Of a stretch of DNA of 64,000 nucleotides, positions 20,754-29,302 are shown in pieces; position 1 is the first letter of the stretch, and every line of letters starts with the position of its first letter. The notes beneath the pieces were generated by a model. It was not told where the DNA came from and searched no databases. It saw nothing but the letters and a program-made list of their open reading frames with translations. The translations under genes were made by a program, and so were the position numbers. This DNA comes from Candidatus Melainabacteria bacterium (GTDB lineage: Bacteria > Cyanobacteriota > Vampirovibrionia > Obscuribacterales > Obscuribacteraceae): NCBI GenBank assembly GCA_003242885.1, contig QKMZ01000004.1, positions 124,001-188,000 on the forward strand, in the 5' to 3' direction.

Positions 20754-21902
20754 ATGAAAAGACTGCTGAACACAATCTCGCTGCTCTTAGTGATGTTCTT
20801 CGCATTAATTGGGACTGCCGCCGCTCAGACGAGCTGGCTGCCGACCTACAATGCAGGACAAACGGTCTATATCGCACCTGGCGTGGATGCGTCCTTCGAG
20901 GGCACATACGCGACGCAGGCGTTCAAGACCGAAATCGGGAATGCGGCACGAGTCCACAATCTCGACGTGTACGTCATCATCACGGCAACGGGCAACGACG
21001 CCGGCAGTGATGCACGTCAGGCAGGACCAGTTCTGGTGCGCAATCTCTGGACCAGATGGACAGCCGATGTCGCGTTCAATTCCGAGCGCGCCGTCATCGT
21101 CCTCATGACCGGAGATGGTCACACGCTCACTTCCGTTGGCGTTCGCGCCGGCGGTTATCTCAATAACCTCGGCATCATGCGCGCCACGATGAACGATCCC
21201 AACGGGCCCGTCATGCCTGTCCTTCGCTCCTATCTGGCAAGCGACCCGGCATCTGTTCCGGTGCGCATCGTCAACAACCTCAACGCAATCGTCACCTCCA
21301 AAGTCTATCCGCCTGCCAATTCCGGCGGCGGCAATCAGCCGAATTCCGGCACCACCGAAGGAGACAATTCCATGAGCATCGGCACTACTCTGCTGATCAT
21401 TGCGGGCGGCATCATTGCCGTCGCGCTCCTCGCGCGGCTCATCTTCCCGCCACGTCGTCCGTCCTCGACCTACACGCCTCCGGCTCGCCCGACCACGCGC
21501 AAGCCCGGCAGCGGTTTCGAAGGACGGCTCAGCGACAGCCGTCGCAATCGCACTGGTGGCACCGCCGGTGGTGCGGACGTACCGGATGGCGATGACGACA
21601 ATCGTCGTCGTGGCGACAACGATGGCATCAACACTGCTGCGGCTGCCGGAGCCGGCGTCGTCGCTGGTGTTCTGCTTTCCGAGACCATCCGTCGCAATGA
21701 CGACGAACCGCGTCGTGACTCGGGTTCTAGCGACGGTGGCTACGTGCCTCCTGTCACTCCGAGCTGCAGCTCCAGCACTCCGTCATGCAGCTCCTCGTCC
21801 AGCTCCGGCTCCTCTTGCAGCTCCAGCTCAGGCTCGTCCTGCAGCAGCGGCGGCAGCAGCTGTGGTGGCGGCGGTGGTGGCGGTTGCGGCGGCGGCGGCT
21901 GA
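20754..21902 (+). CDS. exported TPM-like membrane protein with Cys/Gly/Ser-rich tail
   Basis: The 382-residue protein has a signal peptide (MKRLLNTISLLLVMFFALIG, cleavage expected after TAAA). A domain of about 150 residues resembles TPM_phosphatase (AVIVLMTGDGHTLTSVGVRAGGYL). A transmembrane segment follows (TTLLIIAGGIIAVALLARLIF, about residues 205-225), then a basic/low-complexity region. The last 45 residues are almost only Ser, Cys and Gly, with about a dozen cysteines (PSCSSS, SSCSSGG, SSCGGGG). TPM proteins often end in Gly-rich tails, but such a Cys-rich one is unusual. AGGAG 7 nt before the ATG decides the start. It is the first gene of a three-gene cassette. Confidence 0.75.
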   Translation: MKRLLNTISLLLVMFFALIGTAAAQTSWLPTYNAGQTVYIAPGVDASFEGTYATQAFKTEIGNAARVHNLDVYVIITATGNDAGSDARQAGPVLVRNLWTRWTADVAFNSERAVIVLMTGDGHTLTSVGVRAGGYLNNLGIMRATMNDPNGPVMPVLRSYLASDPASVPVRIVNNLNAIVTSKVYPPANSGGGNQPNSGTTEGDNSMSIGTTLLIIAGGIIAVALLARLIFPPRRPSSTYTPPARPTTRKPGSGFEGRLSDSRRNRTGGTAGGADVPDGDDDNRRRGDNDGINTAAAAGAGVVAGVLLSETIRRNDDEPRRDSGSSDGGYVPPVTPSCSSSTPSCSSSSSSGSSCSSSSGSSCSSGGSSCGGGGGGGCGGGG

Positions 21903-21972
21903 TCGAATTTTCACACAGGTGCACGCGGTTTTTCTAAACCGCGGATTGCAACAGTAATGAGGAGAATTCGAA

Positions 21973-22473
21973 TTGGCTGCCTACTTCCCTGATTGCGCTG
22001 CCGCGACAGCACGCACAACTCCGAGTAAAGTCGCAGACATAACCACACTTCGCCGACAAATCTTAGAATTTCGCATCGACAAAACGGGTGCTCCGTACCC
22101 TTTCTCGATGCGTTTGGCGGATGAACAGGACTGGTCTATCGAATTCGCGCAGCAGGCGATTGAAGAGTACAAGCGCTTCATCTTCCTGGCTGCCGTTTGC
22201 GACCACCCTATCACTCCGTCCTTCGTGGTCGACGAAGTGTGGCACACGCACCTCATCTTCACTCGCTCGTATTGGGAGGAGCTTGGCGACATCGTCGGCA
22301 AGCTCATTCACCATGACCCCGGTCAGGGAGAGCCAGGTGATGAGGCGGTTTTCGCCAACCAGTATCTGAAAACGCTGGAGTCTTACCGGAAACATTTCGG
22401 TGAGCCGCCCGCAGATGTCTGGGGTCCGGAAAACCGAAAGAACGTGATCGCCAAAGGGCGCAAAGCGCTCTAA
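21973..22473 (+). CDS. DUF1399/glycine-rich-domain-like cytoplasmic protein
   Basis: This 166-residue protein shows the pattern of the glycine-rich-domain-containing (DUF1399-like) family. It has LAAVCDHPITPSFVVDEVWH, THLIFTRSYWEELGD, the HHDPGQGEPGDE segment and LESYRKHFGEPPADVW. In plants this domain is joined to Gly-rich sequences; here the Gly-rich tails are on the two neighbouring proteins. No signal peptide or membrane segment is present. The start is TTG at 21973 with GAGGAG 8 nt upstream. Genes on both sides share its strand with gaps of 70 and 140 nt, so cotranscription is likely. Molecular role unknown. Confidence 0.8.
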   Translation: MAAYFPDCAAATARTTPSKVADITTLRRQILEFRIDKTGAPYPFSMRLADEQDWSIEFAQQAIEEYKRFIFLAAVCDHPITPSFVVDEVWHTHLIFTRSYWEELGDIVGKLIHHDPGQGEPGDEAVFANQYLKTLESYRKHFGEPPADVWGPENRKNVIAKGRKAL

Positions 22474-22507
22474 GGCACTCGGAGGCGAGCAATCATCAAT
22501 CTCTATG

Positions 22508-22530
22508 CGGACGACTGCATTTGTCGTCCG
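22508..22530. repeat. short hairpin within the cassette
   Basis: CGGACGAC (22508-22515) pairs with GTCGTCCG (22523-22530). It is followed at 22555-22566 by GCATCGCCCCTACA, a half-site of the GTAGGGG palindrome family. It could modulate expression of the third gene. Confidence 0.5.
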
Positions 22531-22613
22531 TTGCAAAAACAGAGTGGTGCATGGCATCGCCCCTACACCGATGAGCTCGCCCCTTTCCCTCAGTTGGAAA
22601 AAGGAGTGCAAAC

Positions 22614-23126
22614 ATGACCGAGTTTCAGAGCTATGTTCTCATCGCAGCAGCGCTGGTTAGCGTTGGCTCGTTGCTGATGTTCTTCATAGGCTGGGAACGA
22701 AAGAAGGCACGCATGCGCGAGGAATCGCGTCTGGCTGCCGCTCGCCGTGCCGCCGCTGCTCGCGATGCAGCGCGCGAGGCAACACGAGAACCCACGCGGA
22801 CAAGATTCGAAGACCGACTGGCAGAATCGCGTTCGCGCGGGCCCGTTCTGCCTGTCGCCCCTGCTCCGATCAGCCTGAGCAAGGACAAACCGACGCCTGC
22901 GCCAATGCCTGCGCGTTCCTCGTCCTGGCCTTCCTCATCGTCCAGCAAACGAACTCCGCCACGCAAACGCTCTGGCGGCGGTAGTCGTGGTCGTCGCTCC
23001 GGTGGATCTTCATCTGGCGGATACTATGGTGGATCGAGCTGTTCTGGCGGCTCCAGCTGCTCTAGCGGTGGTTCGAGCTGCGGTGGTGGAGGTGGCAGCA
23101 GTTGCGGAGGCGGTGGGGGCGACTAA
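22614..23126 (+). CDS. single-pass membrane protein with Cys/Gly-rich tail
   Basis: A 170-residue protein. A transmembrane helix at residues about 6-26 (YVLIAAALVSVGSLLMFFIG) is followed by an Arg/Ala/Glu-rich helix, a Pro/Ser/Arg-rich stretch, and a final 40 residues dominated by Gly, Ser and Cys (SSCSGGSSCSSGGSSCGGGG). The tail is clearly related to that of the first cassette protein. AAGGAG precedes the ATG by about 8 nt. Function unknown; shared tails suggest that the two proteins are handled or assembled together. Confidence 0.75.
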   Translation: MTEFQSYVLIAAALVSVGSLLMFFIGWERKKARMREESRLAAARRAAAARDAAREATREPTRTRFEDRLAESRSRGPVLPVAPAPISLSKDKPTPAPMPARSSSWPSSSSSKRTPPRKRSGGGSRGRRSGGSSSGGYYGGSSCSGGSSCSSGGSSCGGGGGSSCGGGGGD

Positions 23127-23645: not shown

Positions 23646-24050
23646 TCACGATTTCACTAAAGAAAGCGGACTTACAGTTGCTATGTACTCAAAATCTTTG
23701 TCAGTGGTCAATAAACTACACGAGTGCTCTATTGCTGCCGCTGCTATCAGGTAATCTATGGTGCTGGCATTGATGCCAGCTTGTCTGCAAACTTGAGAGA
23801 GCTTAGCGGCGCAAACATAGTCATGCTTCGTCAGCGAAATCAACTCCAGTGCATCAAACTGTTGTTCGATCTGTTTGAACAAGGTTTCGCTGCGAATACC
23901 CTGCAAAACCTCAGTCAGAATAACGCCTAAGTAAAAAATCGAGTGCCCAGATGCAATTAATTCTCTGAGCTGCTTTACGGACTCGTCATTGCTCTGTTGC
24001 TTCCTTCGTAAAGCAAGGCTCCACACAGAAGTATCAACTAAAACGTTCAC
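23646..24050 (-). CDS. vapC: VapC-family PIN-domain toxin
   Basis: A 134-residue PIN-domain endoribonuclease. The acidic metal ligands are visible: VDTSVWSLAL (Asp 6), a Glu in GVILTEVLQGI, an Asp in STIDYLIAAAA, and TTDKDF near the C-terminus. VapC toxins cut tRNA or rRNA. The GTG start overlaps the antitoxin stop as GTGA, so the pair is translationally coupled. Confidence 0.93.
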   Translation of the reverse strand: MNVLVDTSVWSLALRRKQQSNDESVKQLRELIASGHSIFYLGVILTEVLQGIRSETLFKQIEQQFDALELISLTKHDYVCAAKLSQVCRQAGINASTIDYLIAAAAIEHSCSLLTTDKDFEYIATVSPLSLVKS

Positions 24051-24247
24051 CGCGCTTGCCTGGCCTTTTTATAGTCGTATTTCTGATCAAAATCGACCTT
24101 TCCGAAAAACTTGAGAATGTCTTGCTGCTTTCGTCTCTTCACATACTCCTGCAGTGCTTCATTGACAGTTTCGCGTTTGGATTTCTTTCCTCCTAGACGC
24201 AATGCTTCGGACAAAAGTTCATCGTCAATGTTCAGGTTAGTGGACAT
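24047..24247 (-). CDS. vapB: VapB-family antitoxin
   Basis: A 66-residue protein with a ribbon-helix-helix N-terminus (STNLNIDDELLSEALRLGG, KSKRETVNEALQEYVKRR) typical of the VapB antitoxins paired with PIN toxins, and a C-terminal tail (FFGKVDFDQKYDY) that should wrap the toxin. GAGGAGG 6 nt before the ATG at 24247 decides the start. It lies first in the vapBC operon. Confidence 0.92.
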   Translation of the reverse strand: MSTNLNIDDELLSEALRLGGKKSKRETVNEALQEYVKRRKQQDILKFFGKVDFDQKYDYKKARQAR

Positions 24248-24259
24248 GTACGTCCTCCT

Positions 24260-24309
24260 CAAGCTACACATTCACTATATCAAACTTACACAATGCAATG
24301 TGTAGCTTG
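24260..24309 (-). promoter_or_regulatory. vapBC operator and promoter
   Basis: A perfect 13-bp inverted repeat, CAAGCTACACATT (24260-24272) and AATGTGTAGCTTG (24297-24309), lies directly upstream of vapB. Between the arms TATAGT (24274-24279, minus strand) looks like a -10 element. VapBC complexes usually bind such repeats to repress their own promoter. Confidence 0.7.
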
Positions 24310-25004: not shown

Positions 25005-26219
25005 ATGAAATATAGCCTAGTAATTATATTGCTGGTTTTGTGCATCGGTATTGCCGGCTGCTCACGATCAGCGACTCACGAGAAGGCGGCGGAGACTGCC
25101 AGACCGGTCGACCGAGTCACATTGTCTCCAATGGCGATTGAACATTTCGGCTTGAGTGTGGTTACGGTCGAGCAAAGACCTGATATTCAAACGTTCTCCA
25201 CAACAGGCACGATCAAAGCTGATGAAAATCGGGTATTTCACATCAATTCTCTATCTGGCGGCCGAGTCATTAGTGACAAGGTCATGCTCGGCGACATAAT
25301 TCATCCCGGACAAACCCTGGCGATCGTTCAAAACTTGGATGTGGCAAAGGTATACGGGGACTTCATTCACCAGTCACACCAAAATCAAATCGAGACCGAG
25401 CTGTCTCAGACTCGCCTTGCGCTTGCCAAGAAAAATTATGACCGAATACGAGGACTTTATGAAGAGAAAATCGCTGCCGAGAAGGACTATATAAAGGCTG
25501 AATCCGACAAAAAGCTGGAAGAAGAGACGCTTAGAGGTTTGAAAGAACACGCAGTTCACATTCGTGAAGAAGCCAGGTCAATGCTGGCAGCCTACGGAGT
25601 TAAGCTCGGCGATACGAGCGTGGCGCACATTGAGAGCAGCAGCCCGATCACCACACCGCGAGGTGGAGTGATCATCAAAAAAACCGTGACGGTAGGAGAT
25701 GTCGTCTCCAATATAGAACCGCTTTACGTGGTTGGGGATTTGAGCCATGTCTGGCTTGATATCAATGTGTATGACAAACAAATTCAGAGCATCAAGGAAG
25801 GCGATGCAGTCACATTTACAACCGATGGAATTCCCGGGCGCGTACTCAGAAGTCGATTGAGTTACATCAAGCCATCTTCGGAAGATAGCAGTGGAACTTA
25901 TGTCGCCCGAGCAGTGCTCGACAATCCACACATGGACTTGAAACCAGGCATGGTGGGTCAAGTAAGAATTGAACAGCACCGGGCAGAACAGTTGGCATTT
26001 ATTCCTGAAGCCGCGCTTCAGAAGTATGGCAAAGAACAATTCGTTTTCCTGGTCGAGCCCGATGGTTCTTTCAAAAAACAAGTGGTCGAACTAGCTAAGG
26101 AGCTTGAAGACGGCTATCTAATTGCGCGTGGAATTAAGCCTGGGCAGCTAATCGTCGCCAAAGGCAGTTTCACACTGAAAGCTGAAATGCTCAAGGGCAC
26201 GATGGCAGGTGAACGCTGA
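25005..26219 (+). CDS. RND efflux periplasmic adaptor (CusB/CzcB type)
   Basis: A 404-residue membrane-fusion lipoprotein. The N-terminus ends in a lipobox (GIAGC). Next come the lipoyl/barrel-sandwich half (RVFHINSLSGGRVISDKVMLGDIIHPGQTLAIVQNLD), an alpha-hairpin (about 115-190), the second lipoyl half (ITTPRGGVIIKKTVTVGDVV), and the beta-barrel and membrane-proximal domains (LKPGMVGQVRI, EAALQKYGKEQFVFLVEPDG). It links the inner-membrane pump to an outer-membrane channel. The pump gene starts within its stop codon (TGATG), so the two are coupled. No outer-membrane factor gene is in the window. Confidence 0.93.
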   Translation: MKYSLVIILLVLCIGIAGCSRSATHEKAAETARPVDRVTLSPMAIEHFGLSVVTVEQRPDIQTFSTTGTIKADENRVFHINSLSGGRVISDKVMLGDIIHPGQTLAIVQNLDVAKVYGDFIHQSHQNQIETELSQTRLALAKKNYDRIRGLYEEKIAAEKDYIKAESDKKLEEETLRGLKEHAVHIREEARSMLAAYGVKLGDTSVAHIESSSPITTPRGGVIIKKTVTVGDVVSNIEPLYVVGDLSHVWLDINVYDKQIQSIKEGDAVTFTTDGIPGRVLRSRLSYIKPSSEDSSGTYVARAVLDNPHMDLKPGMVGQVRIEQHRAEQLAFIPEAALQKYGKEQFVFLVEPDGSFKKQVVELAKELEDGYLIARGIKPGQLIVAKGSFTLKAEMLKGTMAGER

Positions 26220-29200
26220 TGGAGAGTATTTTCGCCAACTTGGTCAAACATCGTTTGCCTGTCTGCATTTTCTTCCTTTTCGTATTGGCTGGTGGTATTC
26301 AAGCCCTTGTCACGCTGCCGATTGATGCCTTTCCGGATTTAGCCAACAACCAGGTGCAAATCCTTACAGATGCCCCCGGAATGGCGCCACTTGAAGCTGA
26401 GCAATTGGTGACAATACCCATTGAATCAATCATGAACGGCTTGCCTTATGTCACTCAAGTACGATCATTGTCCAAGTTTGGACTTTCTGTCGTTTCCGTC
26501 GTCTTTGAGGACAAAGTCAACATTTACTTCGCGCGTCAACTGGTATTCGAAAGACTGCAATCGGCCCGCGCGCGCCTACCTAAGGGCATCGAACCCCAGC
26601 TCGGTCCGGTGGCAACGGCGATGGGAGAAATATATCACTATGTTGTCGAAGGCAAGTCGTACAGCCTCACAGATTTGAAAACCTTGCAAGACTGGCAGAT
26701 CAAGTATCAGCTGCGATCGGTGCCGGGAATTGCAGAAGTAAACACATTTGGTGGCGAAACGCAGGAATACATCGTCACCATCTCTCCTGTCAAGCTACAG
26801 CAGTATAGTCTGGCGGTACAAGACGTTTTTGAAGCGCTGAGAAAAAACAATGACAATTTCGGAGCCGGCATCATCAATCATGATGCCGAACAGTACACCG
26901 TACGTGGAACAGGAAGAGTGCACGGAATAGCCGATATCGAGAATATTATCGTCAAGTCTCATAATGGTGTGCCTATTTTTGTGCGCACCATCGGCAGTGT
27001 CAATATAGGCACTGCTCCCAGGCAGGGTGCTGCGACCATGAGCGGCACGGGAGAAGTGGTTACAGGCATCGTAATGATGCTCAAAGGAGAAAACAGCCGT
27101 GAAGTAATTGAGCGTGTCAAAGAGCGCATCGAACAAATCAAGTCGACATTGCCCGAAGGAGTAACGCTCAAGCCGTTTTACGATCAATCAATTCTGGTTG
27201 ACGAAACCATTCATACGGTTGGAACCAACCTGATTGAAGGTGGCGCCCTGGTAATTCTTGTCCTCTTGCTTATGCTCGGAAATCTGCGCGCGGCCCTGAT
27301 TGTCGCAGCAGCGATTCCTATTTCTATGATGTTTTCATTCATGGGTATGAAAGAACTAGGCATCACAGCGAACATTATGAGTTTGGGCGCCGTCGACTTC
27401 GGAATGATCGTCGACGGCTCAATAGTCATGGTTGAAAACTGTCTGCGACGATTGGCTCATAATCCAGATCAACGACTCAGTAATCTGCAAATCATTCAGG
27501 AATCGGTGCGTGAAATGGCAAGGCCGATCTTGTTTGGCGTCTTGATCATCACCATTGTTTATATGCCTATCCTGACACTGGAAGGCATGGAATACAAAAT
27601 GTTTTCGCCGATGGTTTTTACGGTCTGCTTTGCTCTTCTTGGCTCACTAGCGATTGCCCTTACGCTCACACCTGTGCTTTGCTCGCTACTGCTGCAAGGC
27701 AAGGTAAAAGAGTGGGAGAGTTTTATCATCAAAGCCATTAAACGCCCTTATCTATGCAGTCTTAGTTGGTGCCTGCGCAATCGGCTTCTCACCATGATGG
27801 TGGCAATTGCCATGCTAGTTGTCACCATGATTACGCTTCCGCTTTTGGGCACTGAATTCGTGCCTAGGCTGGAAGAAGGAAACATAATTATCGAAACTCG
27901 AAATTTGCCCAGCATTTCTCTTCCCGAGGCAGTAAAAGTTTCCAACCTCATTGAGCAAGCTATAGCAGATGTTCCTGAGATAAAAACCGTAGTTTGCCGA
28001 ACGGGAAGGCCAGATCTGGCAACAGACCCGATGGGTGTCAATCAAACGGATGCGTATGTAATTCTCCAACCTCGAGAAAAATGGCGTCCCACAATAACAA
28101 AGGAGAAGCTTGTCGATGAATTGAGAAGTCGTCTCAAAAAGCAGGTACCCGGAGCAAATTTCAGCTTTACCCAGCTCATAGCCATGCGCGTTGACGAACT
28201 CGTCTCTGGAGTGCGTTCTGATGTAGCGGTAAAAATATTTGGCGATGACCTCGACACCCTGGCTGACATAGCCACGGATGTAGAGAAAGTACTTCAGACT
28301 GTCAAAGGAGAAACGGACCTGCAAGTAGAAAAATTGACTGGTAGTGGCCAATTACTGATAAAACCCGATCGTGACCGCATGGCTCGATACGCCGTCAATG
28401 TCAATGAAATTCAGACAGTCGTACAGACTGCAATAATGGGCATGCCCGTCTCGGAGGTACTGGAGGGTCGCAAGCGCTTTGATTTGAGGGTGAAGTTTCC
28501 GGAAGGAAGCAACATGGATCCTAAAGCGGTGCAAAATCTCATCGTGCAAAACTCTGCTGGTAAGCGCTTGCCACTTTCTCAAGTAGCAAGTATAGAAGTC
28601 AACGAAGGTGTCACCGTAATTAATCGAGAATTCGCACAACGGCGCATTGTCGTGCAATGCAATGTGCGCAATCGCGATGTTGGGTCGTTTGTGAAAGAAG
28701 CCCAGCGCAAGCTGGTTTCTCTCAAATTGCCTCCAGGATATTACATGCAGTGGAGTGGTCAATTCGAAAATCAACAAAGAGCAATGAAAAAACTCACACT
28801 AGTGGTGCCGCTTTCAATCTTGATAATTTTTCTTTTGCTAACAATCACCTTTGCTTCAATCAAACATGCTCTTTTGGTCTTACTAAATGTACCTTTCGCT
28901 TTGATCGGAGGAGTGGTGGCCTTGTGGGCGCGCGGCATGTATCTCAGCGTGCCTGCTTGCATCGGCTTCGTCGCCCTTTTTGGCGTGGCAGTATTGAATG
29001 GGCTTGTTCTTGTCTCCTATATAAATAGACTTGTTGAAGACGGAATGCAGCCCGAGTCGGCTATTCGCAGTGCCTGCGAAGTGCGATTGAGACCAGTTCT
29101 CATGACGGCGATGGTGGCGTCTCTCGGCTTCTTTCCAATGGCGCTCTCGACCAGCTCCGGCGCGGAAGTTCAAAAGCCTCTGGCAACTGTAGTTATTGGT

Positions 29201-29302
29201 GGTATTGTCACTTCCACCCTTCTGACTCTGCTCGTTTTGCCTGCCATATACAGTTGGCTGGCAAAGTCCACAAAAGGCGCAAAGATGAACGAGCAGCCAT
29301 AA
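26219..29302 (+). CDS. heavy-metal efflux RND pump (CusA/CzcA family)
   Basis: A 1027-residue inner-membrane proton-driven pump of the HME-RND type. It shows FPDLANNQVQILTDAPGMAPLEAEQLVTIPIE at the start of the porter domain, GMIVDGSIVMVENCLRRL in TM4 (acidic proton-relay residues), and the HME-like GRPDLATDPMGVNQTDAYVIL. Twelve membrane segments in two bundles and two large periplasmic loops are apparent. The substrate, probably a metal cation, cannot be read from the sequence. It overlaps the adaptor gene by one nucleotide. Confidence 0.93.
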   Translation: MESIFANLVKHRLPVCIFFLFVLAGGIQALVTLPIDAFPDLANNQVQILTDAPGMAPLEAEQLVTIPIESIMNGLPYVTQVRSLSKFGLSVVSVVFEDKVNIYFARQLVFERLQSARARLPKGIEPQLGPVATAMGEIYHYVVEGKSYSLTDLKTLQDWQIKYQLRSVPGIAEVNTFGGETQEYIVTISPVKLQQYSLAVQDVFEALRKNNDNFGAGIINHDAEQYTVRGTGRVHGIADIENIIVKSHNGVPIFVRTIGSVNIGTAPRQGAATMSGTGEVVTGIVMMLKGENSREVIERVKERIEQIKSTLPEGVTLKPFYDQSILVDETIHTVGTNLIEGGALVILVLLLMLGNLRAALIVAAAIPISMMFSFMGMKELGITANIMSLGAVDFGMIVDGSIVMVENCLRRLAHNPDQRLSNLQIIQESVREMARPILFGVLIITIVYMPILTLEGMEYKMFSPMVFTVCFALLGSLAIALTLTPVLCSLLLQGKVKEWESFIIKAIKRPYLCSLSWCLRNRLLTMMVAIAMLVVTMITLPLLGTEFVPRLEEGNIIIETRNLPSISLPEAVKVSNLIEQAIADVPEIKTVVCRTGRPDLATDPMGVNQTDAYVILQPREKWRPTITKEKLVDELRSRLKKQVPGANFSFTQLIAMRVDELVSGVRSDVAVKIFGDDLDTLADIATDVEKVLQTVKGETDLQVEKLTGSGQLLIKPDRDRMARYAVNVNEIQTVVQTAIMGMPVSEVLEGRKRFDLRVKFPEGSNMDPKAVQNLIVQNSAGKRLPLSQVASIEVNEGVTVINREFAQRRIVVQCNVRNRDVGSFVKEAQRKLVSLKLPPGYYMQWSGQFENQQRAMKKLTLVVPLSILIIFLLLTITFASIKHALLVLLNVPFALIGGVVALWARGMYLSVPACIGFVALFGVAVLNGLVLVSYINRLVEDGMQPESAIRSACEVRLRPVLMTAMVASLGFFPMALSTSSGAEVQKPLATVVIGGIVTSTLLTLLVLPAIYSWLAKSTKGAKMNEQP

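Follow-up and report, generated by a model that had tools for sequence, protein, structure and literature searches.

A GRDP-like protein encoded between two Cys/Gly/Ser-tailed membrane proteins: a candidate split form of a two-part module

In the 64,000-nucleotide stretch of Candidatus Melainabacteria DNA analysed here (hereafter the window), three neighbouring genes raise the question of why two membrane proteins should end in cysteine-studded Gly/Ser tails, and what the small protein encoded between them has to do with those tails. The original prediction placed these genes at 20754-23126 and described two of the products as Cys/Gly/Ser-tailed, and both points were confirmed. The features are as follows.

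20754..21902 (+): P0001, 382 aa, with a signal peptide, an extracytoplasmic domain (TPM-like at most), one transmembrane segment, a predicted cytoplasmic linker and a Cys/Gly/Ser tail
20832..21308 (+): P0001 extracytoplasmic domain (~160 residues; alignment A3)
21390..21446 (+): P0001 transmembrane segment, residues 213-231; C-terminal flank +5/-0, tail predicted cytoplasmic
21516..21542 (+): P0001 motif FEGRLSDSR, the counterpart of FEDRLAESR in P0003
21762..21899 (+): P0001 Cys/Gly/Ser tail, 6 Cys
21973..22473 (+): P0002, GRDP-like (DUF1399/PF07173), 166 aa, TTG start
22231..22251 (+): P0002 conserved D87-x2-W90-H91-x-H93 (alignments A1 and A4)
22309..22320 (+): P0002 conserved H113-H114-x-P116 (two alignments)
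22614..23126 (+): P0003, 170 aa, with an N-terminal transmembrane segment, a basic, predicted cytoplasmic linker and a Cys/Gly/Ser tail
22635..22691 (+): P0003 transmembrane segment, residues 8-26; C-terminal flank +8/-3, tail predicted cytoplasmic
22806..22832 (+): P0003 motif FEDRLAESR
22974..23123 (+): P0003 Gly/Ser/Cys tail, 4 Cys

A cassette built around a conserved gene pair

All three genes lie on the same strand, separated by intergenic gaps of 70 and 140 bp and each preceded by a good AGGAG-type ribosome-binding site; a promoter and terminator scan returned nothing above shuffles. The last 46 residues of P0001 comprise 6 Cys, 15 Gly and 23 Ser, and the last 50 of P0003 comprise 4 Cys, 24 Gly and 16 Ser. 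The two tailed proteins have the motif FxxRLxxSR and the order of their parts in common, suggesting that the C-terminal half of P0001 either gave rise to P0003 or is similar to it. The pattern CGGG-(x)n-CGG has six matches in the 6.7-Mb genome: one in P0001, one in P0003, one elsewhere and three that overlap one another on contig C15 and run antisense to a long ORF. P0002 was searched for a signal peptide and for transmembrane segments, and neither was seen; its N-terminus (window 21973-22030) carries a CAxGxA-like motif that is also present in close relatives. Further along the window lie a VapB antitoxin and PIN-domain toxin pair (23646-24271, minus strand) and HlyD_D23/CusB-like and RND-type efflux genes (25005-29302), the latter also downstream in genome G002.

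A search of 99 related genomes gave P0002 relatives in 23, and a P0001 relative adjoins P0002 in 14 loci, the window included. Apart from P0001 relatives and an antisense ORF of P0002, no neighbour family recurred in at least 4 of the 28 loci compared. P0003 relatives occur in three further genomes (G002, G007 and G041), and two viral contigs pair a GRDP-like gene with a P0003-like tailed protein; one of these contigs encodes a phage-type DNA polymerase. Because the pair recurs in 14 loci and P0003 in few genomes, the P0001-P0002 pair is the conserved unit and P0003 an additional tail carrier. The proposal that the three genes are conserved as a set thus holds for P0001-P0002 adjacency across the family but not for P0003. 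A point against tying the tails to this domain is that GRDP-like genes further removed within the family have no such tails close by (L055, L056 and L059-L062).

P0002 is a GRDP-like protein rather than a formal member of Pfam PF07173, because its score of 15.4 bits (E 0.032) falls below the gathering score of 22.7. Its profile reaches a relative annotated as GRDP-like, and its AlphaFold model, which is all helices (mean pLDDT 79), was matched by Foldseek to a Harvfovirus ‘Glycine-rich domain-containing protein-like’ entry with probability 1.00, TM-score 0.57/0.67 and E 3e-3. The DUF1399/GRDP-like label first given to the middle gene is therefore upheld by the fold match and the annotated relative, with a Pfam score that is sub-threshold. 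The association with Gly-rich sequence is likewise present, in trans at the cassette and in cis in other organisms. Comparison of the P0002 model with the PDB by fold gave no match at E<=0.001, and a PDB sequence search with the P0001 and P0002 domains gave nothing convincing. The GRDP-like proteins of Cupriavidus and Variovorax (L076:3911-4519, L074:3983-4558) also score below the PF07173 cut-off, and their C-terminal repeats are like AYCARxA and AWCSLEA. In a wide alignment of P0002 relatives (A1), the columns of D87, W90 and Y100 are invariant and those of H91, H114 and P116 nearly so; in a second set (A4, n=12), D87, W90, H91, H93 and H113 are invariant. The HHxP loop is modelled less confidently (mean pLDDT 64 for block 111-120).

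The identity of the P0001 domain is less clear, and ‘TPM-like’ is a guess. P0001 had no hit to any Pfam family, PF04536 (TPM_phosphatase) had no match in the whole genome at the gathering threshold, and profile-profile alignment of the P0001 domain with PF04536 by hhalign scored 16.3, inside the range of shuffled columns (mean 11.5, maximum 18.6), leaving the original label unproven; the structure model, built from two sequences only, reached a pLDDT of just 35, too low to be usable. TPM_phosphatase proteins share the layout of P0001: after the signal peptide comes an extracytoplasmic domain whose strands and helices are predicted in a similar order, then a transmembrane segment and a low-complexity C-terminus. 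The TPM tails found in this analysis, however, are Gly-rich without Cys arrays. Relatives of the P0001 domain occur in 28 of the 99 genomes searched. Large proteins with a P0001-type domain, many of ~1000 aa, are encoded at L189:1031-4102 (the window's own genome, contig C13) and in L175-L188, and their ends are mostly Gly/Ser-rich and Cys-free.

Cys tails and GRDP-like genes across the family and beyond

Of the 74 ORFs that lie no more than 1 kb from a GRDP-like gene, 19 carry a Cys/Gly/Ser tail, as against 0 of 346 elsewhere in the same loci (Fisher P 5.7e-16, phylogeny not corrected for). Within the P0001 family, a Cys tail is present in 14/14 members with a GRDP-like neighbour and in 2/16 complete members without one (P 8e-7). 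The 14 Cys-free relatives have mostly Gly/Ser-rich ends, and the two exceptions come from one genome, which has a GRDP-like gene elsewhere. On the P0001 family tree this association is a single change, so the P values exaggerate the independence of the observations, and independent support rests on unrelated scaffolds. The original prediction would have been refuted by tails varying freely in cysteine content, and here the answer is mixed: Cys number varies, from 2 to 9 per tail, yet in the P0001 family the presence of Cys tracks the GRDP-like neighbour.

Unrelated scaffolds are provided by TIGR04222 proteins that carry such tails and are fused or adjacent to GRDP-like domains in L033, L058, L070 and L071. 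Fusions of a GRDP-like domain to a Cys/Gly/Ser tail occur in Rhizobium, Planktothrix, Gloeothece, Jeotgalibacillus, Chitinophagaceae and viral contigs, the last searched with a DNA pattern; the Rhizobium fusions are two-transmembrane proteins, and a Bacillota protein has an N-terminal transmembrane segment. The nine closest cyanobacterial relatives (L111-L119) are all fusions, two of them with short tails. Family-wide P0001-P0002 adjacency and these fusions bear out the earlier view that the GRDP-like gene is linked to the tails, and we regard a functional pairing of P0002 with the tails as highly probable. That the low-complexity ends are a coincidence might be argued from how common Gly/Ser-rich ends are among related proteins, but the enrichment near GRDP-like genes and the occurrence of fusions in several phyla make this barely credible.

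Several further loci show other arrangements. A cyanobacterial gene adjoining a GRDP-like gene (L135:7126-8138, minus strand) encodes a leader-GG-(GGCRGG)n peptide, in which a leader ending in GG is followed by GGCRGGGGCRGG repeats; this peptide, too, counts among the unrelated scaffolds that give independent support. On a Streptomyces plasmid (L078:1755-4390), a GRDP-like gene whose product has the C-terminus CSQCHSGCSESNYDGQ has a radical SAM gene ~1 kb away. On a Deinococcus plasmid (L072:3914-4820), the sequence after the GRDP-like domain encodes a Cys/Gly tail, but in a different reading frame.

Location of the tails and competing explanations

Hydropathy-based prediction gives P0001 and nearly all of its relatives a basic flank after the transmembrane segment, as it does the L047 copy of P0003 (+7/-0); in the P0003 copies of L031 and L032 the flank charge is ambiguous, and the fused Rhizobium protein has a transmembrane pair with basic flanks on both outer sides. 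By the positive-inside rule, these flanks predict that the tails lie in the cytoplasm, the same compartment as P0002. Stable disulfides are not expected in the cytoplasm. The original prediction of an envelope system with anchored or crosslinked tails has in its favour the signal peptide and extracytoplasmic domain of P0001; the basic flanks of P0001, P0003 and the L047 copy run against it, making envelope crosslinking unlikely and the envelope reading as a whole very improbable.

Another reading makes the tails RiPP-like substrates of an MNIO or YcaO enzyme whose gene lies at another site in the genome; P0002 would then serve for recognition or as a partner. Its attractions are that TIGR04222 proteins with Gly/Ser/Cys tails have been proposed as MNIO substrates (PMC12452194), that the window's own genome has four MNIO and two YcaO matches, and that a repeat peptide gene (L135) and a radical SAM gene (L078) occur beside or near GRDP-like genes. 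Yet neither MNIO nor YcaO turns up as a recurrent neighbour in the 28 loci, no MNIO gene stands beside a tail gene at the cassette itself, three of the four MNIOs lie in bufferin-like operons, and the cassette (contig C4) is on a different contig from the YcaO matches (C9). Nor is YcaO needed for GRDP-like genes: it was matched in 6 of 50 relatives, with no match in the GRDP-like-bearing genomes G007, G011, G018, G019 and G028. MNIO was matched in 37 of the 50, so its co-occurrence is uninformative, and G066 (91% completeness) has a GRDP-like gene and TIGR04222 with no MNIO match. We consider this reading unlikely, and quite unlikely also the proposal of a metal sink or sensor formed by the tails on the inner side of the membrane, to which P0002 delivers metal or from which it removes it. 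The Cys-rich and in places His-rich tails (L047, L122), the conserved His/Asp site of P0002 and the efflux genes downstream of the cassette would suit such a role, but among the loci inspected those genes are downstream in the window and G002 only, and the wide variation in tail Cys number also argues against it. If the tails were instead stickers that cluster membrane proteins around P0002 as a non-catalytic scaffold, low-complexity, repetitive tails on unrelated anchors would be understandable, and TPM domains have been suggested to aid membrane-complex assembly (PMC11237479), which is relevant if P0001 has one. This gives no account of why Cys, and not Gly/Ser alone, tracks the GRDP-like gene, or of the invariant D, W and Y and nearly invariant His residues, and we hold it to be improbable.

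YcaO matches among the relatives are mostly confined to the window's own genus, and the two in its genome lie ~8 kb apart (G000 contig C9, 257784-266862). On contig C5 of the same genome (L068:8717-13800), a divergent MNIO gene stands beside four tandem paralogous proteins with Cys-motif ends (QGCNGRCGMG, QPCPGMCGLG, PPCPACGMG and DPCYGCGRG), which are possible new MNIO substrates.

A proposed two-part module and its known relatives

The explanation that we favour, if only on balance, is that the cassette is a split form of a two-part GRDP-like/Cys-tail module in which P0002 is the partner of the tail cysteines. To us the cassette looks like one version of a widespread module, because in many bacteria, in phages and in plants a GRDP-like domain adjoins such a tail or is fused to it. 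P0002 would be its soluble, cytosolic, all-helical half, and the Cys arrays, set in Gly/Ser-rich tails, would be kept on the cytoplasmic side of the membrane by the unrelated anchors P0001 and P0003. As a dedicated partner, P0002 would bind the tails, and we judge it reasonably probable that it acts on them directly. Such action would most likely be on the tail thiols, through the D-x2-WH-x-H / Y / HH-x-P site, which is conserved and looks metal-binding and so suggests chemistry on thiols; metal-dependent thiol chemistry rather than simple binding is, however, somewhat less likely than not. More doubtful is the broader idea that the GRDP-like domains of bacteria, phages and plants make up a class so far unrecognised, one that recognises Cys/Gly/Ser tails and acts on them chemically; the window would hold a split, membrane-anchored form.

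Plant work on DUF1399/GRDP proteins has dealt with growth and stress and assigns them no biochemical function; TIGR04222 Cys/Gly/Ser tails have been listed as possible substrates. Gene order and fusions connect these two groups and give each a testable partner, and a bacterial or phage pair of one GRDP-like and one tailed gene would be a simple system in which to study the domain's function. Our literature search found no paper tying DUF1399/GRDP to bacterial tails, and the text of the TIGR04222 paper has no mention of DUF1399 or GRDP (PMC12452194). Like P0001 and P0003, TIGR04222 proteins join a membrane anchor to a C-terminal Cys/Gly/Ser tail, but that paper places their tails in the periplasm and proposes them as MNIO substrates, whereas the P0001 and P0003 tails are predicted to be cytoplasmic and have no MNIO beside them; the TIGR04222 domain itself had no match in P0001, P0003 or the window's own genome. 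Bufferins and other MNIO-modified peptides resemble the cassette tails in being Cys-containing targets, but the bufferin-like operons of this genome have different precursors and are not linked to the cassette. Further relatives are the plant DUF1399 proteins AtGRDP1 and AtGRDP2, to which the available part of the source study assigns a Gly-rich region but no biochemistry (PMC4299439). In AtGRDP2 and its orthologs the Gly-rich consensus is [CG]GGGCGG[GC], with interspersed Cys (PMC4299439), so that here, as in the cassette, a DUF1399-type domain occurs together with a Cys-containing Gly-rich stretch. In the plant proteins, as described in that part of the source, one chain holds both elements, together with a putative RNA-binding (RNP-1) motif, and no membrane anchor is mentioned; the cassette, in contrast, encodes domain and tails as separate proteins.
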